A stretch of DNA of 10,594 nt from Spirochaetes bacterium RIFOXYC1_FULL_54_7 (GTDB taxonomy: Bacteria; Spirochaetota; Spirochaetia; Treponematales; UBA12059), in NCBI GenBank assembly GCA_001830645.1, contig MIBM01000034.1, forward strand, positions 3,210-13,803, written 5' to 3'. Position 1 is the stretch's first letter. Every line of letters begins with the position of its first letter. This document shows, piece by piece, positions 1 to 10,594 of this stretch. The position numbers were made by a program, and so were the translations under genes. A model generated the notes under the pieces. It was not told the DNA's origin and did not search any database. It was given only the letters and a program-made list of their open reading frames with translations.

Positions 1-1590
1 AGTGAAGGCGTCGTTGCGGCGGCCAAGCCTGAGGCATCCCAGGTTGGCGTGGACATACTCAAGCGCGGCGGCAATGCGGTTGATGCTGCTGTTGCCACCG
101 GGTTTGCCCTGGGTGTCCTTGAAGCCAATGCTACCGGTATTGGTGGTGGTGGCTTCATGATCATCAAAATGGCAGACATGAAGGAAGCGGTGATCATAGA
201 CTTCCGGGAGACCGCTCCGGCGGCGGCCAAGCCGGATATGTTCAAGTATGGTACCGATGGCAAAGTAATAGACAGCATGAATACTGTGGGCGGTCTTTCC
301 TCCGGTGTTCCCGGCGAAGTAGCTGGCCTGCTGTATGCTTTTGACAACTATGGTTCCAAGCGGATCACCCGCAGTGCTATGCTGGAGCCTTCCATCCAGT
401 ATGCCCAGAATGGCTACAGGGTCACCGAGAACCTTTCACCCATCATCAGGGACAACCTGGCCAAGATAAACAAGTATCCGGCTACCGCGGCCATCTATAC
501 CGATGGCGGTCTGCCGCCCGAGATCGGTGCCACCATCAGGAATCCTGATCTGGCTGCTACCCTGCGCCTGATTGCCAGGGACGGCGTGGATGCCATCTAC
601 AAGGGTGCCATGGCCGAGCGCATCGCCAAGGCTGTCCGTGATGCCGGTGGTATCCTGACTGCCCAGGATCTGGCAAACTACAAGGTGCAGGTACGCAAAC
701 CGGTAGTAGGAACCTACCGCGGCTATACCATAGTCTCGACGCCTCCTGCCAGTTCCGGTGGCGCCCACATAATCCAGATCCTCAATATCCTGGAGAACCT
801 CGACATTGCCAAGATGGGTATCGGTACCACAGCTACTGCCCATGCCTGGATAGAAACCCTGCGTCTGGCTTTTGCGGACAGGGGCAAGTACATGGCAGAC
901 GCCGACTTCGTGAAAGTCCCGATGGCCGGTCTGACCAACAAGAACTACGCCAAGGAACTTTTCGGTAAGATAGACATGAACAAGGCCATGGGCAGCGCTT
1001 CGGCCAGCGATCCTACTAAATACGAGAGTGGCTCTACCACCAGCTTCTCGGTGATGGACAAGGCCGGCAATATGGTTACCGTAACCAAGAGCATCAACTA
1101 CTTCTTCGGCTCCGGTGTGGTCGTACCCGGGGCTGGTTTCATCATGAACAACCACATGGATGATTTTGTCCTTAAACCAGGTCATATCCAGTCCATCGAG
1201 CCAGGCAAGCGCCCCCTGTCATCCATGACTCCTACTTTGGTGCTTGATCCAAATGGCCAGCCGTTCATGACCCTCGGTTCACCTGGAGCAACCCGTATCA
1301 TAGCAGCCAATGCCCAGGTGATCTCCAACGTCATAGACCACGGCATGCCCATCCAGGAAGCCATCCTGGCACCCCGCCTGTTTGCCATGGCCAGCGGCCA
1401 GGCCACAATGGAAGGCCGCGTTTCCATCAATACATTCAACGGTTTGAAGGCTCTTGGCCATGATATCATGGTCCGCGGAGACTGGGATGCCTACTTCGGC
1501 GGTGTCCATGCGGTGTTGTTCGATCGTTCGAAAAAAGTGCTCTATGGCGGTGCCGATCCCCGCCGTGACGGCCAGGCCGCAGGGTTCTGA
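1..1590 (+). CDS. ggt: Gamma-glutamyltransferase (GGT/CapD family), 5'-truncated by window edge
   Basis: N-terminal nucleophile hydrolase that cleaves or transfers gamma-glutamyl groups, normally exported and self-processed into two subunits. The frame is open to base 1 and the first residues (SEGVVAAAKPEASQVG) are already family sequence, so the true start and signal peptide lie outside; about 529 residues are visible. Arg69 in FRETAP matches the substrate-binding Arg. Thr346 in STTSFSV (bases 1036-1038) matches the catalytic Thr, giving a small subunit of about 184 residues, normal for the family. NNHMDDF, KRPLSSMTPT (Ser407, Ser408) and the C-terminal GGADPRRDG follow. Between DDF and KRPLSS only 13 residues remain, as I recall for Bacillus subtilis GGT and shorter than in E. 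coli, so the lid loop is absent. The usual Pro-Gly-Gly oxyanion motif reads Pro-Gly-Ala (Ala430). Next to PGA synthesis genes, a role as PGA depolymerase or CapD-like transpeptidase is likely but inferred. Confidence 0.93.
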   Translation, partial: SEGVVAAAKPEASQVGVDILKRGGNAVDAAVATGFALGVLEANATGIGGGGFMIIKMADMKEAVIIDFRETAPAAAKPDMFKYGTDGKVIDSMNTVGGLSSGVPGEVAGLLYAFDNYGSKRITRSAMLEPSIQYAQNGYRVTENLSPIIRDNLAKINKYPATAAIYTDGGLPPEIGATIRNPDLAATLRLIARDGVDAIYKGAMAERIAKAVRDAGGILTAQDLANYKVQVRKPVVGTYRGYTIVSTPPASSGGAHIIQILNILENLDIAKMGIGTTATAHAWIETLRLAFADRGKYMADADFVKVPMAGLTNKNYAKELFGKIDMNKAMGSASASDPTKYESGSTTSFSVMDKAGNMVTVTKSINYFFGSGVVVPGAGFIMNNHMDDFVLKPGHIQSIEPGKRPLSSMTPTLVLDPNGQPFMTLGSPGATRIIAANAQVISNVIDHGMPIQEAILAPRLFAMASGQATMEGRVSINTFNGLKALGHDIMVRGDWDAYFGGVHAVLFDRSKKVLYGGADPRRDGQAAGF

Positions 1591-1657: not shown

Positions 1658-1697
1658 GCCGCCCGCGGGTATCATGCCTGTGGGCGGCATTTTGTTT
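1658..1697 (+). terminator. Intrinsic (Rho-independent) terminator or attenuator after ggt
   Basis: The arms GCCGCCC (1658-1664) and GGGCGGC (1682-1688) pair perfectly. Pairing continues inward, with some G-U pairs, to 1670/1676, giving a stem of about 13 bp with a 5-base loop. A T-rich tract, ATTTTGTTT (1689-1697), follows at once. This is a convincing + strand terminator for ggt. It ends only about 4 bases before the AAGGGG ribosome binding site of the next gene, leaving no room for a promoter, so downstream genes must depend on read-through or on a promoter upstream of or inside the hairpin region. Confidence 0.8.
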
Positions 1698-1714: not shown

Positions 1715-2266
1715 ATGCAAAGAGTGGTGTTGTTTCTCCTTTTATCGTCCCTGGTTCTGGCTGGTTCCTGGGCCCAGCCTACCACGGCCTTTGCCGACAA
1801 GCCGGCCCTGCTGACATCCATAGGCCAGAGTGCCGACCTGGAGATGGTAAAGGTATTGCTCACCCGGGCGCGGGTCGCCTTTAACCATGATCCGCTGGTA
1901 CTGGCAGCAGGCCTGACTGGTGATGCCAAGACCCTGGTACTTGTAGTGGGTGGTAGTTCCAAGGGACTTGGTGCGGCTGGCATTAGTGCGGATGCCGAGA
2001 TGGAGCGTGCAAGAGCGCTGATAAAGCGTGCACGGGAGCTTGGCATGAAGATAATCACCGTACATGTCGGCGGAGAAGCCAGGCGAGGTACCCTGTCCGA
2101 TGTCTTTATCGAACTCTGTGTCCCCATCGCCGATTATGCCCTGGTGGTTGCCGATGCGGACAAGGATGGCCTTTTTACCCGCCTTGCAGCGGGGGCAAAG
2201 ATAGCCCTGACCAAGGTGGACAAGATATCCGCCGTAGGCGCTCCCCTGGCTGCGGCCTTCAAGTAA
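1715..2266 (+). CDS. Secreted DUF6305-like protein
   Basis: 183-residue protein with a clear signal peptide: basic start (MQR), hydrophobic core through about residue 19, and probable cleavage after AFA near residue 27. The mature part has alternating hydrophobic strands and helices, with a glycine-rich turn in LVLVVGGSSKGLGAAGIS and later HVGGEARRGTLSD and DADKDGLFT. I recall this pattern from the DUF6305 family; its function is not known to me. The ATG start has GAAGGGG at 1701-1707, seven bases upstream. It is the first gene after the terminator, and the permease follows with only 10 bases between. The position suggests an extracytoplasmic partner of the permease or of the PGA machinery. 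The glycine-rich loop could bind a small anionic ligand, but no catalytic residues can be named. Confidence 0.85.
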   Translation: MQRVVLFLLLSSLVLAGSWAQPTTAFADKPALLTSIGQSADLEMVKVLLTRARVAFNHDPLVLAAGLTGDAKTLVLVVGGSSKGLGAAGISADAEMERARALIKRARELGMKIITVHVGGEARRGTLSDVFIELCVPIADYALVVADADKDGLFTRLAAGAKIALTKVDKISAVGAPLAAAFK

Positions 2267-2276
2267 GGGAGGCATT

Positions 2277-3545
2277 GTGCCCTTTGAAATGACAATCTTT
2301 CTGGTCATGGTTGGCGTATTTGCCGCCGGTGCCTTTCTTGTAAAATTGCCGGTTTCAATCTCCATGCTGCTCGCAGCCTTTTCCGCCCTTCTGGTATCGG
2401 GTAACGGTCTTGGGGTCAGGCACCTGGTGGAAGGTACCTTTGGCTATGTCGATACCATCCTGGTCATAGCCACGGCCATGATCTTCATGCGGGCGGTGCA
2501 GGAAAGTGGAGCCCTTGAGGCGCTCAATATTGTCATCATAAAGCGCTTCCGCAAGGTGCCGGTCCTGCTGTTGCCGCTTTTGATGCTGGTGGCTATGTTT
2601 CCGGGCATGATAACCGGCAGTTCCAGTGCATCGGTGCTGACAGCCGGAGCAGTGGTAGCGCCGGTGCTCATGATCCTGGGTATGCCCATGGCCAGCGCTG
2701 GAGCCTTCATAGCCATGGCGGGCATTCTGGGCATGATAGCCCCGCCGGTGAATATTCCGGCCATGATCATAGGTGGCGGTATAGACATGCCCTTCGTGGG
2801 CTTTGAAGTGCCCCTGCTGCTCCTGACCATGCCATTGGCGGTACTGTTTTCATGGTGGCTGGGCCTCAGGTACGTGAAGAAGACAGCCTGGGAGGATCTG
2901 GCTCCGAAGCTGGACCTGGTTAGCTATGGCAAGTATGGACCAAGGCTCTTCATTCCCATCCTGGTGGTTGCTGCCCTGATGGTTCTTGGCAAAGTCGTGC
3001 CCGGGATCTTCGGCATGGGCCTGCCGGTGATCTTCCTGATCGGGGCCGGTCTGGGTTGTGTGGTTGGCAAGCGCTTCAACATCCTGCAAGCTGCCAAGGC
3101 CGCGGTAAACGATGCCCTGCCTGTGCTGGGCATACTGGCCGGTGTGGGCATGTTCATCCAGGTAATGACCCTGACGGGTGTCAGGGGCTTCGTGGTGGTA
3201 AGCGCCCTTTCGGTGCCCCAGGCCCTGTTGTTCGTGGCCATTGCGGTAACCATGCCCCTGTTCGGGGCTGTCTCCTCCTTCGGTTCCGCCAGTGTGCTGG
3301 GCGTGCCCTTCCTCCTGGCCTTGCTTGGCCGGGACCAGATAGTGACCGCCGCCTCTCTGTCCCTGATAGCCGCCCTTGGCGACTTCATGCCACCCACCGC
3401 CCTGTCGGCAATCTTTGCTGCCCAGGTTGTGGGGGAGGAGAAGTATTCCAGGGTACTTGTCAAGCTGATACTGCCATCCCTGGTGATTGTCGCCTGGGCA
3501 CTGGTATTCATCGCTTTTTCAAAGCAGATCCGGGCCATGTACTGA
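2277..3545 (+). CDS. DctM-like (TRAP large-subunit type) membrane permease
   Basis: 422-residue polytopic inner-membrane protein of the ion transporter superfamily, the usual length of a TRAP DctM subunit. It shows the expected two-fold internal pattern: GSSSAS (residues 114-119) and GMIAPP (152-157) in the first half, GSAS (336-339) and GDFMPP (368-373) in the second. These helix-breaking Gly/Ser and Pro-Pro motifs form the substrate and ion sites in the family. The GTG start has GGGAGG at 2267-2272, four bases away; the next ATG (codon 5) is too far from it. TRAP systems normally have a DctP binding protein and a four-helix DctQ; neither is present. The neighbours are instead a secreted DUF6305-like protein and a 48-residue membrane protein. 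In this operon the substrate may be glutamate, a related dicarboxylate or a PGA fragment, but this is inference. Family call is firm; substrate is unknown. Confidence 0.88.
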   Translation: MPFEMTIFLVMVGVFAAGAFLVKLPVSISMLLAAFSALLVSGNGLGVRHLVEGTFGYVDTILVIATAMIFMRAVQESGALEALNIVIIKRFRKVPVLLLPLLMLVAMFPGMITGSSSASVLTAGAVVAPVLMILGMPMASAGAFIAMAGILGMIAPPVNIPAMIIGGGIDMPFVGFEVPLLLLTMPLAVLFSWWLGLRYVKKTAWEDLAPKLDLVSYGKYGPRLFIPILVVAALMVLGKVVPGIFGMGLPVIFLIGAGLGCVVGKRFNILQAAKAAVNDALPVLGILAGVGMFIQVMTLTGVRGFVVVSALSVPQALLFVAIAVTMPLFGAVSSFGSASVLGVPFLLALLGRDQIVTAASLSLIAALGDFMPPTALSAIFAAQVVGEEKYSRVLVKLILPSLVIVAWALVFIAFSKQIRAMY

Positions 3546-3561
3546 TGGAGCATCTATTGAT

Positions 3562-3566
3562 GGAGG
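3562..3566 (+). promoter_or_regulatory. Ribosome binding site fixing the start of the 48-residue membrane protein
   Basis: GGAGG sits seven bases before the ATG at 3574. The same frame stays open further upstream, overlapping the permease gene, but the hydrophobic protein and this Shine-Dalgarno sequence both point to the ATG at 3574 as the true start. Confidence 0.75.
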
Positions 3567-3573
3567 CAAACCA

Positions 3574-3720
3574 ATGATGACCATAGTCTATCTAGCCATC
3601 GCCGCAGGCATACTGGCTCTTACGGTCTGGAACCTGTGGACTGAAAAGGATTGGCGCAAGCAGGCTTCCGCAGCCATGGTGGCCATACCTCTGCTGTTGC
3701 GCGTATTTCTGGTCAAGTAG
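3574..3720 (+). CDS. Small two-helix membrane protein (48 residues)
   Basis: Predicted microprotein with a strong ribosome binding site and tight spacing: 28 bases after the permease stop and 9 bases before the next start. It has a hydrophobic segment at residues 3-20, a charged turn (WTEKDWRKQ, 23-30) and a second, shorter hydrophobic segment at 33-46, so a helical hairpin in the inner membrane is likely. I do not recognise a family. Its place directly after a DctM-like permease that lacks a DctQ subunit makes it a candidate accessory subunit; alternatively it could assist the membrane-anchored hydrolase or PgsB/PgsC, small accessory proteins being known in PGA systems (PgsE/CapE). It has no sequence likeness to those that I can see. 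Confidence 0.75.
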   Translation: MMTIVYLAIAAGILALTVWNLWTEKDWRKQASAAMVAIPLLLRVFLVK

Positions 3721-3729
3721 GGGACTGCA

Positions 3730-4860
3730 ATGAAGAAACACCATATCACTGCCCTTATCGTGTCGGTCGTAGCGCTATTAATGGCCGTTACCGCCGGCAA
3801 GGCCTTCCTTGAACATCGCAGACCTGAAGCAATAGTGCGTGGTCCCGGCGTTACCGGAATCCGTAAACTTTCGTCCTGGTTCCCGACCCTGGCTGGTTCG
3901 CCGGGTGACACGGATGTCTACATCTTCCAAGGAGAAGAATCCGGCGGTTCCATGCTGATCATAGGCGGGACCCACCCCAACGAACCATCCAGTTTCCTGT
4001 CCGCGGTCCTGCTCATAGAGAATGCCGTTGTGAATGCGGGTACCTTGTACGTCATACCCCGGGCCAACTCATCCGGCTTTACCCACAATGACCCCCAGGA
4101 AGGCGCTCCTATGGGCTACTCCCTGACCCTGTCTGACGGATCATCGCGTTACTTCCGCTATGGATCAAGGGCGACCAATCCGGTGCACCAATGGCCGGAT
4201 CCCGATGTGTACATCCATGCCACCAGCGGCCAGACCCTGTCGGGCAACGAGACCCGGAACCTGAACCGGGGCTATCCTGGCAGACCTGACGGAACCCTTA
4301 CCGAGCGCGTGTGTTACGGTATAACCGAACTGATACGTACGGAGAAGGTGGACATCAGCATAGACCTGCACGAAGCCTCGCCGGAATACCCGGTAATCAA
4401 TGCCATCGTGGCCCACGAGCGGGCTATGACGGTAGCTTCCTATGTCGTGCTGGGCCTGGAAATGTACGATATCAATATCGGCCTTGAACCGTCACCCAAG
4501 AACCTGCGGGGTCTGACCCACCGGGAACTTGGGGATGCCACGGATACCCTTGCGGTGCTGATGGAAACCGCAAACCCCTCCCAGGGGCGCCTTCGCAGCC
4601 GGACCGGCGAGGCTTTGGTGCTGACAGGCAAGGATCCGTACTATGTGAAGGCCCAGGCCCTGGGGCGATTGTACGTGCCCTTCGATGAAACCGGCCACCC
4701 CATTGAGCAACGGGTGGGAAGGCATCTGACCGCCATCGGCGAGTTTGCCTTTGCCCTGTCCATGGAGTACCCGGACAAGCCCCTTGAGATAGATGGAATC
4801 CCTGGCTACGACGAACTTCTGGAATCCGGGGTTGGAGCCTTTCTCCTGCCTGTGCAATGA
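3730..4860 (+). CDS. Membrane-anchored zinc hydrolase, succinylglutamate desuccinylase/aspartoacylase (M14-like) family
   Basis: 376-residue protein with an N-terminal hydrophobic segment (about residues 7-25) after MKKHH, acting as a signal anchor or signal peptide, so the catalytic domain faces outward. Zinc site: HPNE (His82, Glu85) and DLHE (His214). NLNRGYPG (Asn177-Arg180) matches the substrate-binding Asn-Arg of AstE, aspartoacylase and M14 carboxypeptidases, and Glu279 in LMETANP is the probable catalytic Glu. Such enzymes cleave amide bonds next to a free carboxylate, which suits gamma-glutamyl chains. The start has AGGGGA at 3719-3724, five bases upstream. The gene overlaps the next hydrolase gene by four bases (ATGA). 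In this operon it may trim, release or degrade PGA. The fold and metal site are well supported; the substrate is inferred. Confidence 0.85.
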   Translation: MKKHHITALIVSVVALLMAVTAGKAFLEHRRPEAIVRGPGVTGIRKLSSWFPTLAGSPGDTDVYIFQGEESGGSMLIIGGTHPNEPSSFLSAVLLIENAVVNAGTLYVIPRANSSGFTHNDPQEGAPMGYSLTLSDGSSRYFRYGSRATNPVHQWPDPDVYIHATSGQTLSGNETRNLNRGYPGRPDGTLTERVCYGITELIRTEKVDISIDLHEASPEYPVINAIVAHERAMTVASYVVLGLEMYDINIGLEPSPKNLRGLTHRELGDATDTLAVLMETANPSQGRLRSRTGEALVLTGKDPYYVKAQALGRLYVPFDETGHPIEQRVGRHLTAIGEFAFALSMEYPDKPLEIDGIPGYDELLESGVGAFLLPVQ

Positions 4861-5960
4861 GCTTGTGCAATTCAGTGTTTTCCAGGGGAAGCGCTGTGGC
4901 TTTGTCCGGGGTGCTTCCCCGGTTTGTGCACGAGCCTCGGTTCCTGACCCTGCTTTTGACTTTTATCCTTTTCATGGCCTTCCCCCTGCCTGCCTGCGCC
5001 GCACCTTCCGAGCGAACAGTAGACGGGCCTGCTCCTGGGAAAGCCAGCCAACCATGCAGCATACCACTCAGCAAGCCAGGCAGCATGACGACCGGCAAGC
5101 CAACGGGTGGCTATGACATGCCAAGTTGGGCAGACCTGACAATACTGTCAGATGAGGAGCCAGGAACGGTACTGATGGTGGTAGCAGGGGTTCATGGTGA
5201 CGAAACTTCGGGGCCCATGGCTGCCAGAAAGCTGGCTGCAGGGCCAGCACCGGTCAGAGGAATACTCTTTGTGCTGCCTGTTGCCTCTCCCGAAGCCCTG
5301 GCCGCCGGCCAGCGCTGGCTGCCAGGATGGTCCGACCTGAACCGGGCTTTTCCCGTGGCAGGTGAATCCGGGGTTTCCGGAACCTCCAGATCAGCCGGAA
5401 CAGCCGGAACAGCCGGAGCAACCAGAACAGCCGGAACCTCCAGATCAGCCGGAACAGCCGGAGCAACCGGAACACCTGGGTCGGCTTACGCGGTATCCGA
5501 TCCTACTTACCAGAGGGCTGATGAAATCCTGGCTCTCATAGCCTCGGTACGGCCAGCCCTTTTACTTGATCTGCACGAGAGCGATCACTACTGGACCGAA
5601 GGAGATGAACCTGCTCTGGTGGTGCCCGCCTCGGCGGGTTCGGTTGGTTCGGCTGGCTCGGTACAGTCCGCTGAACTGGCTCTTGAATTGATGGAGTTGC
5701 CAGGCATGGAGGGGTTTGCTTTTACCGGACCGCCTCCGGCAGGAAGCCTGGTGGCGGCGGTGGCTGGCCTGCTTGGCATACCGGCCCTGCTGGTGGAGGT
5801 ACCGGATGCCCTGGTGGTGGATGCCAGGATTGCGGTATATCTTGCGGTGGTCGAGGCAGCTATGAGAATTCTGGGCATGGGCTGTCAGGGTACGGGCGAT
5901 GTGGAAAATCCGGTCGGTTCCCCGCAAGGAGCTGACCCCGGGGCTGGAGCTGCACCGTGA
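4857..5960 (+). CDS. Secreted zinc hydrolase, succinylglutamate desuccinylase/aspartoacylase (M14-like) family, with repeat insertions
   Basis: 367-residue second hydrolase, divergent from the first. A hydrophobic segment at about 29-45 ending in LPACA is a signal peptide; cleavage after ACA or lipidation at that Cys are both possible. Catalytic set: HGDE (His113, Glu116), DLNRAFP (Asn162, Arg163), DLHE (His240) and Glu314 in LLVEVPDA. Between DLNRAFP and the next helix sits a Gly/Ala/Ser/Thr-rich insert of about 40 residues made by 9-bp DNA repeats; a second short repeat (GSVGSAGSV, residues 261-269) follows His240. The first hydrolase has only short loops at the first site. The ATG at 4857 overlaps the previous stop but lacks a ribosome binding site. 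GTG at 4896 has AGGGG seven bases upstream and gives a more normal signal peptide, so it may be the real start. The gene ends in GTGA, overlapping pgsB. PGA processing is the likely role, by context. Confidence 0.82.
   Translation: MSLCNSVFSRGSAVALSGVLPRFVHEPRFLTLLLTFILFMAFPLPACAAPSERTVDGPAPGKASQPCSIPLSKPGSMTTGKPTGGYDMPSWADLTILSDEEPGTVLMVVAGVHGDETSGPMAARKLAAGPAPVRGILFVLPVASPEALAAGQRWLPGWSDLNRAFPVAGESGVSGTSRSAGTAGTAGATRTAGTSRSAGTAGATGTPGSAYAVSDPTYQRADEILALIASVRPALLLDLHESDHYWTEGDEPALVVPASAGSVGSAGSVQSAELALELMELPGMEGFAFTGPPPAGSLVAAVAGLLGIPALLVEVPDALVVDARIAVYLAVVEAAMRILGMGCQGTGDVENPVGSPQGADPGAGAAP
4884..4888 (+). promoter_or_regulatory. Possible ribosome binding site for an alternative GTG start of the second hydrolase
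   Basis: AGGGG lies seven bases before the in-frame GTG at 4896. The upstream ATG at 4857 has no Shine-Dalgarno sequence at useful distance (nearest GGAG is 19 bases away). Starting at 4896 removes 13 residues and leaves a shorter N-region before the hydrophobic core of the signal peptide. Confidence 0.45.
5376..5474 (+). repeat. In-frame 9-bp tandem repeat array (11 units) in the second hydrolase gene
   Basis: Eleven successive 9-base units fit the consensus GCCGGAACA, with variants TCCAGATCA and ACCAGAACA. A higher-order copy is visible: the 32 bases at 5377-5408 recur exactly at 5431-5462, an offset of 54 bases (six units, 18 codons). Units are in phase with the reading frame and encode Ala-Gly-Thr, Ser-Arg-Ser and similar tripeptides, so changes in unit number keep the frame open. 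The array falls between the Asn-Arg motif and the third zinc ligand of the enzyme. Confidence 0.93.
5637..5663 (+). repeat. Second short 9-bp repeat array (3 units) in the same gene
   Basis: Three units, GGTTCGGTT, GGTTCGGCT and GGCTCGGTA, encode Gly-Ser-Val, Gly-Ser-Ala, Gly-Ser-Val in frame. Flanking codons (TCGGCG before, CAGTCCGCT after) look like decayed units. The unit length equals that of the larger array but the base sequence differs, so it seems to be a separate expansion. Confidence 0.75.
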
Positions 5961-7207
5961 ACAGCGGACAGTTCCAGCTTGTCCTTGGTCTTGGTGCCTT
6001 TGCCTTGTATCTGGGGTTTCTGGCTGCCGAGAGAGTGTTGCTCAAGGTAGCCCGTCGCCGGCTGAGGCTGGTGATCCATGTGAATGGCACCAGGGGTAAA
6101 TCGACGGTGACCCGGATGGTCCATGCCATACTGCTTGAGGCCGGTTACCGGGCCTGGGGCAAGACCACCGGTACGGAGCCACGGTTGCTGTTGCCCGACG
6201 GGGGTGAGCAGCTTATCCGGAGGCTGGGTCCGGCCAATGTCCGGGAGCAGCGGAACATGCTGCTGGCCGCAGTCCGGGGCGGGGCCGATACCCTTGTGTT
6301 TGAATGCAATGCTGTACGCCCGGAACTGCAATTGGTTTCGTCGGCTTTTCTGGATCCCGATCTGCTGGTGATCACCAACGCCCGGCTGGATCATGGGGTT
6401 GAACAGGGTGATGCCGATACCGCAGCCTCCTCCTTTGCGTCCACCATACCTGCGGGGAAGGCTCTGGCCAGTTCGGATACCGTGCATAAATCCTTGTGGG
6501 AGGCGGAGGCGAAAAATAAAGCTGCCCGGTTGCTTTTTGTCGATCCCCAGGATGGTGAAGGCCTGGGTGACTTGCCGGAGAACGTGGCCTGTGCCTTTGC
6601 CGTCGCAGACTGGCTTGGTCTGTCCAGGGACAGAGCTGCCAAGGCGGTTCGATGTTACACACCTGATCCTGGTGCCTTCAAGTTGCTGCACTGGACAGGC
6701 ACTGGAGGCCAGAGGGTGTGGTTTGCTGATGCCCTTGCAGCCAATGACCCTGAGTCCAGCGACAGGCTGGCGCAGCGGGCCTTGGCTTCCGCCGGGAAGG
6801 AAGGGATGAACCTGGCACCAGGGCAGACTGTCCGGGTGCTTCTCGTCGCCCTGCGCAGGGACAGGCCGGAGCGTACCAGGCTGTTTGTGGACTATGCCCT
6901 TGCAAGATTCCGGAGTGGAAGAGAGCCGGCTGAGGGTGATCCCGGAAGTGACACCAGCCTTCTTTTTGACAAGGTGCTTTTCATTGGTGCTGTCCCCTGG
7001 GGTAAACGAATCCGGCTGGGGGAGGCAGGTGTCATGTATCAAATCCTGGGTACATCCAGTGGGGTGTTGCAGGCAGCCTTGGATAAGCTGTGCGCCCCCC
7101 CCGGTAGGGATGTTTTCATCTTTGCCGGAGGCAACAGGATCGGGCCTGGCAAGATTGTCCATGACTGGGCTGTAGCCAAGTCAGAGGAGGCCTGCCTTGA
7201 ATCCTGA
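5957..7207 (+). CDS. pgsB: Poly-gamma-glutamate synthase PgsB/CapB (ATP-dependent amide ligase)
   Basis: 416-residue ligase of the Mur-ligase-like fold that activates the gamma-carboxylate with ATP and joins glutamates into PGA, at the inner face of the membrane with PgsC. It starts with a hydrophobic helix (residues 7-24), as in Bacillus PgsB. The P-loop GTRGKST (44-50, Lys48) follows in VIHVNG, then KTTGTEPR, GPANVREQ, ECNAV (Glu116), ITNARLDH, DPGA (237-240) and the family motif AAND (261-264); each has a counterpart in B. subtilis PgsB as I recall it (393 residues). The GTG start overlaps the previous stop (GTGA) and has GGAG at 5946-5949, seven bases away. All key residues are present and the gene appears intact. 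Residues around 310-330 form a modest charged insertion. The identification is very secure and sets the function of the whole operon. Confidence 0.96.
   Translation: MNSGQFQLVLGLGAFALYLGFLAAERVLLKVARRRLRLVIHVNGTRGKSTVTRMVHAILLEAGYRAWGKTTGTEPRLLLPDGGEQLIRRLGPANVREQRNMLLAAVRGGADTLVFECNAVRPELQLVSSAFLDPDLLVITNARLDHGVEQGDADTAASSFASTIPAGKALASSDTVHKSLWEAEAKNKAARLLFVDPQDGEGLGDLPENVACAFAVADWLGLSRDRAAKAVRCYTPDPGAFKLLHWTGTGGQRVWFADALAANDPESSDRLAQRALASAGKEGMNLAPGQTVRVLLVALRRDRPERTRLFVDYALARFRSGREPAEGDPGSDTSLLFDKVLFIGAVPWGKRIRLGEAGVMYQILGTSSGVLQAALDKLCAPPGRDVFIFAGGNRIGPGKIVHDWAVAKSEEACLES
7183..7190 (+). promoter_or_regulatory. Strong ribosome binding site inside pgsB that sets the TTG start of pgsC
   Basis: AGAGGAGG lies in the last codons of pgsB, six bases before the TTG at 7197. 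It is one of the best Shine-Dalgarno matches in the window and justifies a non-ATG start overlapping the pgsB stop by 11 bases. Confidence 0.8.
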
Positions 7208-7637
7208 AGCCTATCTGGTCCTCGGGGTGGTTCTGGGCATCCTGTTCATGGAACTGACCGACGTTTCCCCCGGTGGACTCATTGTTCCCGGCTACATCGC
7301 CCTCTTCTGGAACAGGCCGGACAGGCTTGCCCTAAGCCTGGTTATAGCCTTGCTGACAGTGGCCGTCATACGCCTGGCCGGTCGAACTCTGGTACTCTTC
7401 GGACGCCGGCGCTTTGCCCTCTTCCTGCTTGCCGGCTTTGCCATCCGGGTTGCGGCGGAATTCCTGCTGCCTATGGTTAATCCAGCTTTTGGCGGTCTTG
7501 AGGCCATAGGCTGGCTCATACCCGGCATCATCGCATCGGACATGGATAAACAGGGAGTGCCAAAGACCCTGCTTGCCGCAGTAGCCGTGGCTGGGTTGGT
7601 CTCTCTGGTGGCTTTGGCCGTTGAATATGTTGTATAA
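7197..7637 (+). CDS. pgsC: Poly-gamma-glutamate biosynthesis membrane protein PgsC/CapC
   Basis: 146-residue integral membrane protein, close to the 149 of B. subtilis PgsC, that forms the PGA synthase complex with PgsB. Recognisable family stretches: LTDVSPGGLIVPGYIALFWNRP near the N-terminus, LFGRRRFALFLLAGF in the middle, and IGWLIPGIIASDMDKQG in the C-terminal half. About four to five hydrophobic helices are visible. The TTG start is supported by a strong ribosome binding site at 7183-7190. The gene overlaps pgsB by 11 bases and the next gene by up to 17, so translation of all three is likely coupled and their amounts matched. Nothing is missing compared with the family. Confidence 0.95.
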   Translation: MNPEAYLVLGVVLGILFMELTDVSPGGLIVPGYIALFWNRPDRLALSLVIALLTVAVIRLAGRTLVLFGRRRFALFLLAGFAIRVAAEFLLPMVNPAFGGLEAIGWLIPGIIASDMDKQGVPKTLLAAVAVAGLVSLVALAVEYVV

Positions 7638-8772
7638 CCCGGTTCGCGGAATTGTTTTTCTTTCCTCTCCTCTATCCAAGCTGCCTTTCCTGTTGCTCTG
7701 CAGCTTCCTGATCGCCTGGGCCTTGTTGATGTCCTGGCTTGCTGGTTTTCTGCCTGTTGACCAGGCAGCGCTGGAGGCAGCACGCATTCAGGCCTTGGTG
7801 ATCCAGGCGGTCAGCCAAGGCGCTGGCGACCGTGGTTTGTCCATCGACCTGGAAGTAGACCGGCATGGCACGGGTATGATTGGCGAAGTGTTTACCGGTC
7901 TGACCAGCACCCAGGGCAGTTTGCCTGCCAAGCGCACCGCATCCACGCCGGATGCCGCCGCCCTGCTGGTCGCGCTCCTGCGGGAGGCCGGGGTAGGAGA
8001 AGGCAGCCTGGTTGCGGTTAATGCATCCGGGTCTTTTCCTGGCTTTGCCCTGGCAGCCGCTTCGGCTTGCGGCGCCCTGGGAGCGGATGCGGTGATTGTG
8101 CTGTCCATCGGGGCCTCCAGCTGGGGCGCCAATCGGCCGGATTATACCGTACTTGATATGTTCATGGTTGCCGCCGAGGGTGGGGTCTGGCCGCCTGGAT
8201 ATCCTGTGGTAATTGCAGCGCTGTCCCCCGGAGGCTCGGATGACCGTGGTCTGGATCTGGATACCCAGGCTCTTGAACCGGCCCTTGACCGTGCTGCCGC
8301 CCTTGGCATCCCGGTATTGCGTCCAACGTCCCTTGCCGGAGCGGTTTCTTCCAGAATGGCTATTTCCCGTGCCAGGGGGGAGCCTGACGTACTGTTGACC
8401 ATAGGAGGCAATTACGCCTCCACCGGAGCAGATCCAGCCCTGGCCCTGCTGTCCGGTGTCATCCGGCCTGAAGACTCGAGGGGACTGGGCCAGGCAGGAA
8501 ACGGCGGGCTAGTACAGGAATTCCTGCGTGCGGGGCTGCCGGTCATCCAGGTGCTCAACATAGAAGATCTGAGTACCCGGTACGGTCTACCCTTTGATCC
8601 GGCTACGGTTCCTGACCTTGGCCAGGCCGGGGTGTACCGTCGCGGGGTGGGGCACAGCCTGAGTCCGGGCTTGCGGTTTGGCATGTTGGCCCTGGTATTG
8701 CTGCCCGCCTTGGGAGCAGTGGCTGCTTTTGCAGGTTACCGGAGGTTCAAGCGAAAGGCTGTGATGGTCTGA
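7621..8772 (+). CDS. pgsW: Poly-gamma-glutamate system protein, PgsW-like
   Basis: About 383 residues with one membrane helix near each end (about 21-44 and 353-372, then a basic tail YRRFKRKAVMV) and a large domain between them that should lie outside the membrane. The order pgsB-pgsC-this gene and the two-anchor design match what I recall as the 'poly-gamma-glutamate system protein' family (TIGR04332/PgsW), found where CapA/PgsA is not adjacent. Conserved-looking stretches include FPGFALAAASACGALGADAVIVLSIGASSWGANRPD (given here only as part of a Gly/Ala-rich fold), LTIGGNYAS and GVGHSLSPGLRFG. TTG at 7621 has GGTGG nine bases upstream; ATG at 7627 is an alternative that would give an 11-base overlap with pgsC. 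A role in translocating or releasing PGA is inferred. No enzyme motif is recognised. Confidence 0.83.
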   Translation: MNMLYNPVRGIVFLSSPLSKLPFLLLCSFLIAWALLMSWLAGFLPVDQAALEAARIQALVIQAVSQGAGDRGLSIDLEVDRHGTGMIGEVFTGLTSTQGSLPAKRTASTPDAAALLVALLREAGVGEGSLVAVNASGSFPGFALAAASACGALGADAVIVLSIGASSWGANRPDYTVLDMFMVAAEGGVWPPGYPVVIAALSPGGSDDRGLDLDTQALEPALDRAAALGIPVLRPTSLAGAVSSRMAISRARGEPDVLLTIGGNYASTGADPALALLSGVIRPEDSRGLGQAGNGGLVQEFLRAGLPVIQVLNIEDLSTRYGLPFDPATVPDLGQAGVYRRGVGHSLSPGLRFGMLALVLLPALGAVAAFAGYRRFKRKAVMV

Positions 8773-8794: not shown

Positions 8795-8829
8795 ACCGGC
8801 CCCTGCCTGACCCGGATTCAGCGGCCGGT
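8795..8829. terminator. Weak candidate bidirectional terminator between convergent genes
   Basis: ACCGGCC (8795-8801) pairs exactly with GGCCGGT (8823-8829). Inside, CTGA (8807-8810) pairs with TCAG (8818-8821) across an asymmetric bulge. It sits where the + strand operon ends (8772) and the - strand transporter ends (8818), where a shared terminator would be expected. No T-tract follows on either strand, so it may be only a 3'-end-protecting hairpin or chance. No other terminator is seen in this 45-base gap. Confidence 0.3.
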
Positions 8830-10594
8830 GATGCTGCCGTCTTTCAGGCCAAAGGGCAGCCGGGGAACCACTACCAGGGTAACCGCGGTAGCAGCGCCAA
8901 GGCTTAGTATGGAAAGCAGTCCTGTCCAGGCTGCGGATACGAAGGCAGAAAACAGCAGTATCAGCAAGCCAAGCATGATGATGACGGTGGTCTGGACAAT
9001 GGATGTTCCCGCCGAGGCTATGGCCATAGAAAAGGCATCGGTCTTGCCAAGCCCCAGCCGGGTTCCGTTTCTGGCAGTCAGGAGTAGATGAATGACGTCA
9101 TCCACTCCTACACCCATTACTGCTGCCGCCCCGACGGCCACTATGGGATCAAGGGCCACACCAAGCCAGCCTGCCATGCCGAAATAGATGCCCAGGGCAG
9201 CAAGCGGTGGCAGCAGGGCCTGAATTGCCATTCCCAGGGAACGGAAATAAAAGGAAAAGAATAACAGCAGGGTTGGCATGAAACTGAGTATTCCCATGAT
9301 CATACCATCTACCAGGAAGTCCCTTATGGCAAGGCGCTCCTTGATGATGCTGAAGCTGGATATACCGGCTTCGGGGAAAGCCTGGCTTGCCATGGCCATT
9401 AGTGTAGCCTCGAAGGCATCATAGGACTCCATGTCCGCGGAGGAGAACCGGATGAGCAGGCGTGTAGCGGATGCTTCGGGAGACAGCAAGGATGACAGGG
9501 ATAGCCCTGCCCCGCTGCCTCCAGCGAGTTCAATGGTTTCGCCTATTTCTTCCATGGTGGATGGCCCGGTATCAACACCATTCAGACCCATGAAGGTCCA
9601 GTCGACGAAGGCAGGGGCATCCAGGACTATCGAAACATGCCTGTTCTGCCTGATGGTCAAGGCAAGGTCACGCAATTTGTCATATCGCCCTGGATCGACA
9701 AAGTAGTATGGCTCCCTGCTGTTTATGACAAGCGCAAGTTCCTCCATGCCACCAAATCTTTCATTGTAATACTCCGCGGATTTGAGGTAAGGATCATTCC
9801 TGCGGAAAGACTGTTCATCTGACCAGCGTGACTGGATCAGAGGGGTTCCTGCGGCAGCAAGGATTACCAAGGCTGAAAGGATATACCCACCGAATGGGAT
9901 CCTGGCCATGGCCAGGACAGAGTGACTGGGTTCTTCCCGAACCGGCTTTTCGAGTATGGCTGTAAGTCGCAGCAGGGCAGGCAAAAGCAGCAAGGCTGAC
10001 AGGATAGCGAATAGTATACCGCTGATTATGAAAGCCGCGGTACGTTGAACGGAAGAGATAGGTATGAAGAAGAGGGATGAGAAGCCCAGTATCGTGGTTC
10101 CCCCTGACAGCAGGATGATGGGAGTAACGCCATGGCCGGTTTTCCTGGTCGATTGATGTCTGGTGCGGAGTGCGTGGCGATAATACTGGATGGCATAGGA
10201 TGTTGAGAGTGCAAGGATCTGCACAGGAACCAGTATGGAATCGTTGCGGAATACTGTACCGGTCAAGGGATACAGGGCAAGGGTCCACAGGGCAGGGATT
10301 ACCGAAACGCTCCAGAGGCACAGGCCTGTCCTGATATCCCTGGCCATCCAGGCATGTACGAGCAGAATCAGTGCCGCGGCAAAGGGGATCAGCAAAAACG
10401 TGTCCCTTCGCGCACGGTCCCTCAGTACGGAATTGAAATACGGACCTCCCCAGAAATACAGGATATGTTGCAGTTCCCCAGGTAAGCTGGCCATGACCCT
10501 GTCCATGAACACCGCGGGGCTGGCGGCTTCCAGATCATACAGGTACAGCACCCGGCCATTCCCGTTGGTAGATTGGAACAGTGATGAGATGAAA
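8818..10594 (-). CDS. RND-superfamily (MMPL-type) transporter, 5'-truncated by window edge
   Basis: About 591 C-terminal residues are visible and the frame stays open to the window end, so the GTG at 10551 is not a credible start. The visible part begins at the end of the first extracytoplasmic loop. It then has a group of about five membrane helices (roughly 10420-9950), a seventh helix, a second large outer loop (about 9830-9350, with FRRNDPYLKSAEYYNERFGG as family-like entry sequence) and five final helices. GVGVDDVIHLLL (about 9085-9120) is the family signature in the helix that carries proton-relay acids. Such pumps export lipids, hopanoids or hydrophobic compounds by proton motive force; the substrate here is unknown. 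TM1 and most of the first loop, probably 150-250 residues, are missing. The gene is convergent with the PGA operon and need not be related to it. Confidence 0.88.
   Translation of the reverse strand, partial: FISSLFQSTNGNGRVLYLYDLEAASPAVFMDRVMASLPGELQHILYFWGGPYFNSVLRDRARRDTFLLIPFAAALILLVHAWMARDIRTGLCLWSVSVIPALWTLALYPLTGTVFRNDSILVPVQILALSTSYAIQYYRHALRTRHQSTRKTGHGVTPIILLSGGTTILGFSSLFFIPISSVQRTAAFIISGILFAILSALLLLPALLRLTAILEKPVREEPSHSVLAMARIPFGGYILSALVILAAAGTPLIQSRWSDEQSFRRNDPYLKSAEYYNERFGGMEELALVINSREPYYFVDPGRYDKLRDLALTIRQNRHVSIVLDAPAFVDWTFMGLNGVDTGPSTMEEIGETIELAGGSGAGLSLSSLLSPEASATRLLIRFSSADMESYDAFEATLMAMASQAFPEAGISSFSIIKERLAIRDFLVDGMIMGILSFMPTLLLFFSFYFRSLGMAIQALLPPLAALGIYFGMAGWLGVALDPIVAVGAAAVMGVGVDDVIHLLLTARNGTRLGLGKTDAFSMAIASAGTSIVQTTVIIMLGLLILLFSAFVSAAWTGLLSILSLGAATAVTLVVVPRLPFGLKDGSITGR

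Follow-up and report, generated by a model that had tools for sequence, protein, structure and literature searches.

A widely conserved nine-gene poly-gamma-glutamate cluster joining PgsB-PgsC-PgsW to hydrolases and a candidate transport trio

Introduction

Poly-gamma-glutamate (PGA) has been studied mostly in Bacillus, where loss of pgsA abolishes its synthesis (PMC5751247), and Fusobacterium nucleatum, which carries a homologous operon, is cited as another producer (PMC3815933). Gamma-glutamyltransferase (GGT) removes units from the amino end of PGA (PMC4497714). One review treats GGTs without a lid loop as suited to PGA or as belonging to PGA degraders, and Gram-negative GGTs as lid-positive (PMC8062742), and adding a lid to the B. 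subtilis enzyme changes its choice of donor by size (PMC9073855). Here we analyze a stretch of 10,594 nucleotides from Spirochaetes bacterium RIFOXYC1_FULL_54_7 (GenBank assembly GCA_001830645.1, contig MIBM01000034.1, positions 3,210 to 13,803 of the forward strand; hereafter the window), which lies on a contig of 18,880 bases in a genome that is 72.6% complete. It carries a nine-gene PGA cluster that is real and broadly conserved, a variant of known PGA systems, in which a putative transport trio may be new.

Results

The preliminary description of this DNA, made from its letters, had proposed an eight-gene PGA locus, and the open reading frames confirm it in the proposed order: all eight, from the DUF6305 gene to the PgsW gene, lie on the + strand and are closely spaced or overlapping, with intergenic distances from DUF6305 onward of 10, 31, 9, -4, -4, -11 and -17 bases. 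As an account of the complete module the proposal fell one gene short, because a GGT gene stands directly upstream and is found in 76 of 80 related loci; we therefore count the cluster as nine genes. The features of the region are as follows.

1..1590, + strand: GGT, lid-loop negative, 5' end lost to an assembly gap (TIGR00066, 527.2 bits, cut-off 357.85; lid-less segment MDDFVLKPGHIQSIEPGKRPLSSMTP)
1658..1688, + strand: terminator-like hairpin of 14 pairs between GGT and DUF6305 (hairpin scan; uncertain)
1715..2266, + strand: exported DUF6305 protein with signal-peptide-like N-terminus, proposed receptor (PF19823, 166.3 bits, cut-off 25)
2277..3545, + strand: DctM-like permease (PF06808, 36.4 bits, cut-off 23.8)
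3577..3720, + strand: 47-residue membrane microprotein (alternative start ATG at 3574; no family match)
3730..4860, + strand: Zn1, N-terminally anchored AstE/DoeB/M14-like hydrolase (PF24827, 21.8 bits, below the cut-off of 25)
4857..5960, + strand: Zn2, AstE/AspA-like hydrolase with a low-complexity insert (PF24827, 50.9 bits)
5957..7207, + strand: PgsB, PGA ligase (TIGR04012, 215.7 bits, just below the cut-off of 222.7; NGTRGKST loop)
7197..7637, + strand: PgsC (TIGR04011, 120.4 bits, cut-off 96.45)
7621..8772, + strand: PgsW, occupying the CapA/PgsA position (TIGR04332, 241.1 bits, cut-off 100)

Related loci were collected by searching a DUF6305 alignment against one genome per species (84,980 species); the best 80 of the 134 relatives found were kept, genes in them were counted with profiles grown from the window proteins, and taxon groups were assigned from record titles. 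These loci belong mostly to spirochaetes, Bacillota (chiefly Clostridia) and Fusobacteriota, together with Holophagaceae and other Acidobacteriota, three Bacteroidetes, one member of the Ignavibacteriae and three records whose title says no more than 'bacterium'. Besides GGT, they contain DUF6305 (79), the DctM-like permease (70), the microprotein (67) and Zn1 (73), as well as PgsB (42), PgsC (41) and PgsW (40), absences being soft because many contigs are short. Where both members of a pair are present, DUF6305 precedes the permease in 66 of 69 cases, the permease precedes the microprotein in 65/66 and the microprotein precedes Zn1 in 66/66; GGT adjoins DUF6305 in most loci, and Zn1 (or Zn1-Zn2) is followed by PgsB in 22/80. 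The full order of the window, GGT-DUF6305-DctM-microprotein-Zn1-(Zn2)-PgsB-PgsC-PgsW, recurs in 18 of the 80 loci and across four phyla (5 spirochaete, 7 Bacillota, 4 Fusobacteriota, 2 Holophagaceae). We also found a second arrangement, DUF6305-Zn1-like-GGT-Zn1-like without permease or microprotein, in five spirochaete loci and one titled 'bacterium' (L019, L023, L025, L027, L028 and L029). Four further loci (L079, L100, L105, L112) hold a diverged DUF6305-DctM-Zn1 copy near PgsB-PgsC-PgsW, to which three of them add the microprotein.

The microprotein is under purifying selection, with ratios of nonsynonymous to synonymous substitution rates (dN/dS) at or below 0.15 in 9 of the 10 pairs with finite dS and 0.48 in the tenth, five further pairs being saturated. 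In almost every locus it measures 46-51 residues, and Y5, P38, L41 and R42 are invariant among 22 sequences. Recurrence of the same gene set across phyla, together with this selection, argues that the cluster is not a chance assembly.

Next, we considered co-occurrence at the level of whole genomes. Within a panel of 98 genomes around Fusobacterium gastrosuis (phylum Fusobacteriota), with the permease counted at E <= 1e-20, PgsC, DUF6305 (over its cut-off) and the DctM-like permease were each found in 17 genomes, and these were the identical 17 (Fisher's test, 17/17 vs. 0/81, p = 2e-19, kinship uncorrected). PgsW was present in 16 of them, the exception having its pgsC at a contig end, and two more panel genomes gave DUF6305 matches under the cut-off. 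One panel genome (G224) has DUF6305 and DctM matches split over several frames, while its pgsC and pgsW look open. We additionally searched 50 genomes of the 80 loci, 37 chosen because their locus lacked pgsBC and 13 with pgsBC, and detected PgsC in 43 (30/37 and 13/13, including 9/9 of the named-strain genomes) and PgsW in 44; the genomes with neither (G149, G161, G172, G182, G183 and G185) are metagenome assemblies or uncultured organisms. The upstream genes thus do keep company with pgsBC, the point on which the preliminary description had made itself depend. As background, PgsC exceeded its cut-off in one of 291 genomes of the C. tetanomorphum class, namely the centre genome itself, and in one of 14 control genomes, B. 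subtilis, in which neither DUF6305 nor TIGR04332 was found.

The converse does not hold. In the source phylum, TIGR04332 was detected in 8 of 149 genomes, DUF6305 passed its cut-off in two of the 149 (in one case by a narrow margin), and seven of the eight TIGR04332 genomes have no DUF6305 match and carry PgsB-PgsC-PgsW without the accompanying genes (hereafter the module) in the surrounding 14.5-19.5 kb. The module is therefore not required for having the synthase: PgsB-PgsC-PgsW occurs without it, and it is hardly seen without PgsB-PgsC-PgsW.

The synthase genes had been called secure by motif. This stands for PgsC, which clears its model, and less firmly for PgsB, whose window copy lies just under the TIGR04012 cut-off; the PgsB of the C. 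tetanomorphum relative scores 370.8 bits. The PgsB-PgsC-PgsW triple is complete in 39 of the 42 pgsB-bearing loci, the remaining three each being without one member, and in all 20 further pgsC stretches, which sample 20 genomes out of the 30 whose pgsC lies away from the original locus; the neighbour of PgsC is thus PgsW, not CapA. Module genes, or a diverged copy, accompany the triple in nine of these 20 stretches and are absent from 11. PGA synthesis by PgsB-PgsC-PgsW, which homology predicts, is the firmest step of our reading.

CapA/PgsA (PF09587) had been reported missing from the window, and the finding extends beyond it: no match was obtained on the 18,880-base contig, where a capA gene just outside the window had been the obvious challenge, or in the rest of the 72.6%-complete source genome, which has a single TIGR04332 gene. 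The need for pgsA in Bacillus leads us to expect some protein in the place of CapA here, and the position of the PgsW gene suggests that PgsW may perform that role. Of the two anchors ascribed to it, a hydrophobic segment near each end was recovered, and hydropathy adds an interior one at 143-161. TIGR04332 bears the curated name 'poly-gamma-glutamate system protein', so the link of PgsW to PGA already stands in a public family library and the absence of CapA is not new in itself. The PgsW profile matched no solved structure up to E = 1, and a relationship between DUF6305 and PgsW was unsupported (10% probability for DUF6305 against the PgsW profile). Of the PgsC-bearing genomes, 24/43 show a CapA-family match that exceeds the cut-off and 19/43 do not, several assemblies being incomplete; synthesis in the 24 may use a CapA encoded elsewhere. 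Among the 50 DUF6305-bearing genomes, G186 (L050, G186:C4) is alone in having a CapA-family gene less than 20 kb from pgsC on one contig, at a distance of about 3 kb, many assemblies being fragmented.

Turning to degradation, we measured the GGT lid segment between the DF and KRPLSS-type motifs, which was possible in 78 of 84 module GGTs. It spans 7-14 residues (13 in 61 copies), compared with 23 in 2e0w and 13 in 4y23, which we take to be the E. coli and B. licheniformis GGTs, respectively; the piece missing from the module enzymes is the lid loop. In a ranking of solved structures, ordinary GGTs come closest to those of the module, with the capsule-anchoring enzyme far down the list, and 29 of 35 Bacillota copies have lipobox-like N-termini.

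The two zinc hydrolases of the preliminary description fared unequally, Zn2 matching PF24827 clearly and the window Zn1 falling below the cut-off, yet 19 of 20 Zn1 relatives match the family. Zn1 has an N-terminal hydrophobic segment, and H82, E85, N177, R180, H214 and E279 are invariant in 20/20 aligned sequences; we take these to be M14-type zinc ligands, a carboxylate-binding pair and the general base. Among solved structures it is related to DoeB/AstE-type enzymes and, at a weak level, to the secreted protein 4wck, presumably a cell-shape carboxypeptidase. Zn2 carries the motifs HGDE and DLHE, and its residues 169-208 form a Gly/Thr/Ser/Ala-rich low-complexity insert with a weak collagen match under the cut-off. 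Family, localization and the lid-less GGT together make it plausible that GGT and Zn1/Zn2 cut PGA outside the cell.

Upstream of the hydrolases, DUF6305, the permease and the microprotein form one tight run (gaps of 10-31 bases), as first described, and both named families match above their cut-offs. Grouping the loci as Bacillota, diderm or unassigned, we found a DUF6305 lipobox in 27/31, 2/46 and 1/3 loci, respectively; of the four Bacillota loci scored negative, L060, L073 and L080 look like lipobox sequences on visual inspection. Such a split, lipoprotein in Bacillota and soluble in diderms, is typical of transporter binding proteins. A kinship of DUF6305 with dihydropteroate synthase was rejected, the best structure hit (E 0.006, about 46 residues) being judged a local motif; its other hits among solved structures were likewise weak and local. 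Among the permease relatives, 20 of 21 match PF06808 (E <= 0.001), weakly, and some also match CitMHS (9), Na_H_antiporter (6) or DcuC (5). The only solved structure found was a TRAP DctMQ permease, over the whole length at E 0.96. DctM relatives are known as importers. In the window microprotein, hydropathy gives one clear hydrophobic segment, and from the alignment we read a probable second. The microprotein has homologues in 1306 protein clusters, and descriptive names among the best 120 are all 'hypothetical protein'. We set aside a single frame joining DUF6305 to DctM on a Treponema metagenome contig (L030:1633-3426) as evidence of partnership, because this one short contig encodes a permease without the first 28 model positions; it may be a fusion or an assembly or deletion artefact.

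Several observations concern the surroundings of the cluster. The hairpin at 1658..1688 may separate or attenuate the GGT and DUF6305 transcripts; this is uncertain, and although it has the longest stem, terminator-like sites overall are at chance level (6 observed, 6.1 expected). A promoter scan was uninformative (0 found, 2.7 expected), Rfam gave no matches in the window, and neither PHROGs nor PADLOC matched the window proteins submitted (4 and 5, respectively). An MMPL/RND-type transporter gene faces the cluster from the - strand (8818-10593) and has no relative by profile in the 80 related loci. A histidine-kinase cluster occurs in 32/80 loci and a response-regulator cluster in 30/80 (e.g., L073:653-2068 and L069:9030-9659, respectively; one representative of each was checked), with neither in the window; the pair is a possible dedicated regulator. 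A glutamate-racemase cluster occurs in 5/80 loci, one representative exceeding the TIGR00067 cut-off.

Discussion

We propose that the window encodes a self-contained cluster to make, trim and retrieve PGA, to which we assign a probability of roughly 0.5. PgsB and PgsC would join glutamate units by gamma-amide bonds, and PgsW, anchored in the membrane, would serve as third synthase subunit where Bacillus has CapA/PgsA. Beyond the cytoplasmic membrane, glutamate would be stripped from the amino end of the polymer by the lid-less GGT, and the M14/AstE-like Zn1 and Zn2 would cut it from the carboxyl end or internally. The DctM-like permease, the microprotein and DUF6305 would form a TRAP-like secondary importer with DUF6305 as receptor, returning glutamate or short gamma-glutamyl pieces to the cell, so that PGA could act as a recoverable store or coat. 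Import, substrate and the partnership of the three proteins we infer from gene adjacency, from what the permease family usually does and from the receptor-like localization of DUF6305. More tentatively, and in our estimate with the odds against it, the trio may represent a new class of tripartite secondary transporter, with a microprotein as its reduced DctQ-type subunit and a small unrelated receptor in place of the large binding protein. Its sole task would be to recover gamma-glutamyl material from PGA that the cell itself has made, so that the polymer would be a recyclable external glutamate store in anaerobes belonging to several phyla. The earlier idea of a complete make-move-trim module outside Bacillus is thus supported overall, with three amendments: the 'move' step is conjectural and its direction unfixed, GGT belongs to the set, and PgsW was already curated.

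A number of points weigh against this proposal. The similarity of the permease to DctM is weak and other ion-transporter families match it too, while transport direction is neither fixed by the permease superfamily nor readable from sequence. The permease is absent from 10 of the 80 loci, three of them cut short and seven with room for it (the six loci of the second arrangement and L063); in those seven DUF6305 lies beside Zn1-like or GGT genes, so it does not always stand next to a permease. On the synthase side, the window PgsB scores below its model cut-off, PF09587 exceeds its cut-off in 28 of the 50 DUF6305-bearing genomes, which thus have CapA-family genes elsewhere, and all seven module-free PgsB-PgsC-PgsW genomes carry CapA-family genes (about 11.5 kb away in G107, on other contigs or distant in the other six). 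The panels include related species, and co-occurrence is therefore not a count of independent events. Finally, the module tracks the host's own pgsBC and does not occur alone in scavengers, a pattern that fits maturation or export equally well.

Export is, by a small margin, the strongest alternative: the permease, microprotein and DUF6305 might aid PGA exit or ion balance as part of the synthase's export path, with the hydrolases only setting chain length. Tight linkage, near-perfect co-occurrence and a module hardly seen without PgsB-PgsC-PgsW (44/50) agree with this, but seven genomes have PgsB-PgsC-PgsW without the module, B. subtilis has PgsC without DUF6305 or TIGR04332, DctM relatives are importers, and DUF6305 is extracytoplasmic and localized like a binding protein, and we regard the explanation as unlikely. 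We hold it similarly doubtful that the transporter imports a PGA precursor (glutamate or a C4/C5 dicarboxylate) and not breakdown products: the DctM, CitMHS and DcuC-type matches and the co-occurrence with synthesis genes would suit such a role, yet the transporter genes adjoin the hydrolase (microprotein-Zn1, 66/66) more constantly than PgsB (reached directly from Zn1 or Zn1-Zn2 in 22/80), and GGT lies beside DUF6305 in most loci. Less probable again is that GGT and the zinc enzymes tailor PGA or anchor it to the envelope in the manner of a CapD-type transpeptidase, the transporter having another, linked function. The Bacillus capsule operon does encode an anchoring enzyme that belongs to the GGT family (PMC4497714), and most Bacillota GGTs of the module have the lipobox-like N-termini noted above, but the structural ranking places the module enzymes with ordinary GGTs and Zn1 adjoins the permease, not the synthase. 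That the linkage is mere hitch-hiking of amino-acid-use genes with no common pathway, as the frequency of GGT and DctM-type genes in amino-acid fermenters might suggest, is made very improbable by their presence in the same 17 of 98 genomes and by the same order and linkage across four phyla.

If our main reading is correct, a CapA-less PGA system with built-in breakdown and recovery would extend across Spirochaetota, Bacillota, Fusobacteriota and Acidobacteriota, and into a few Bacteroidetes and Ignavibacteria genomes. It would also provide a first concrete, testable role for DUF6305, for one clade of permeases and for a microprotein family that has no name, and make the role of PgsW testable.

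We found no counterpart of this association in the open-licence library searched, which yielded no paper on DUF6305, on TIGR04332 or on PgsW with poly-gamma-glutamate, and none combining poly-gamma-glutamate with gamma-glutamyltransferase and DctM, or with Leptospira and pgsB. The Cloacimonadota operon likewise places PGA genes in uncultured anaerobes outside Bacillus; it is described as CapB-CapC-CapA, and the passages concerned do not name the module genes (PMC13082233). Compared by family name, the systems defined by NCBIfam TIGR04332 are alike in that PgsW is a member and adjoins PgsB and PgsC. The PgsBCA(E)/CapBCA(E) synthetase of Bacillus shares the PgsB ligase and PgsC in tandem followed by a third membrane-anchored protein, but that protein is here TIGR04332 (PgsW) in place of CapA/PgsA, and hydrolases and a transporter stand in the same run. 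With PGA breakdown in Bacillus (GGT, PgdS) and by phage PghP, the cluster has in common a lid-less secreted GGT and a zinc enzyme as second cutter; in B. subtilis, however, ggt is unlinked to pgs (PMC4497714), whereas here GGT is in the cluster, and Zn1 and Zn2 match AstE/AspA models, with no PghP or PgdS model matching the window proteins. Neither DctQ nor DctP/TAXI matched any of the ten window open reading frames scanned, a genome-wide search not having been made. Like the TRAP transporters (DctP-DctQ-DctM), the trio sets a large DctM-matching permease beside an extracytoplasmic and a small membrane protein, but DUF6305 and the 47-residue protein stand where DctP/TAXI and DctQ would.

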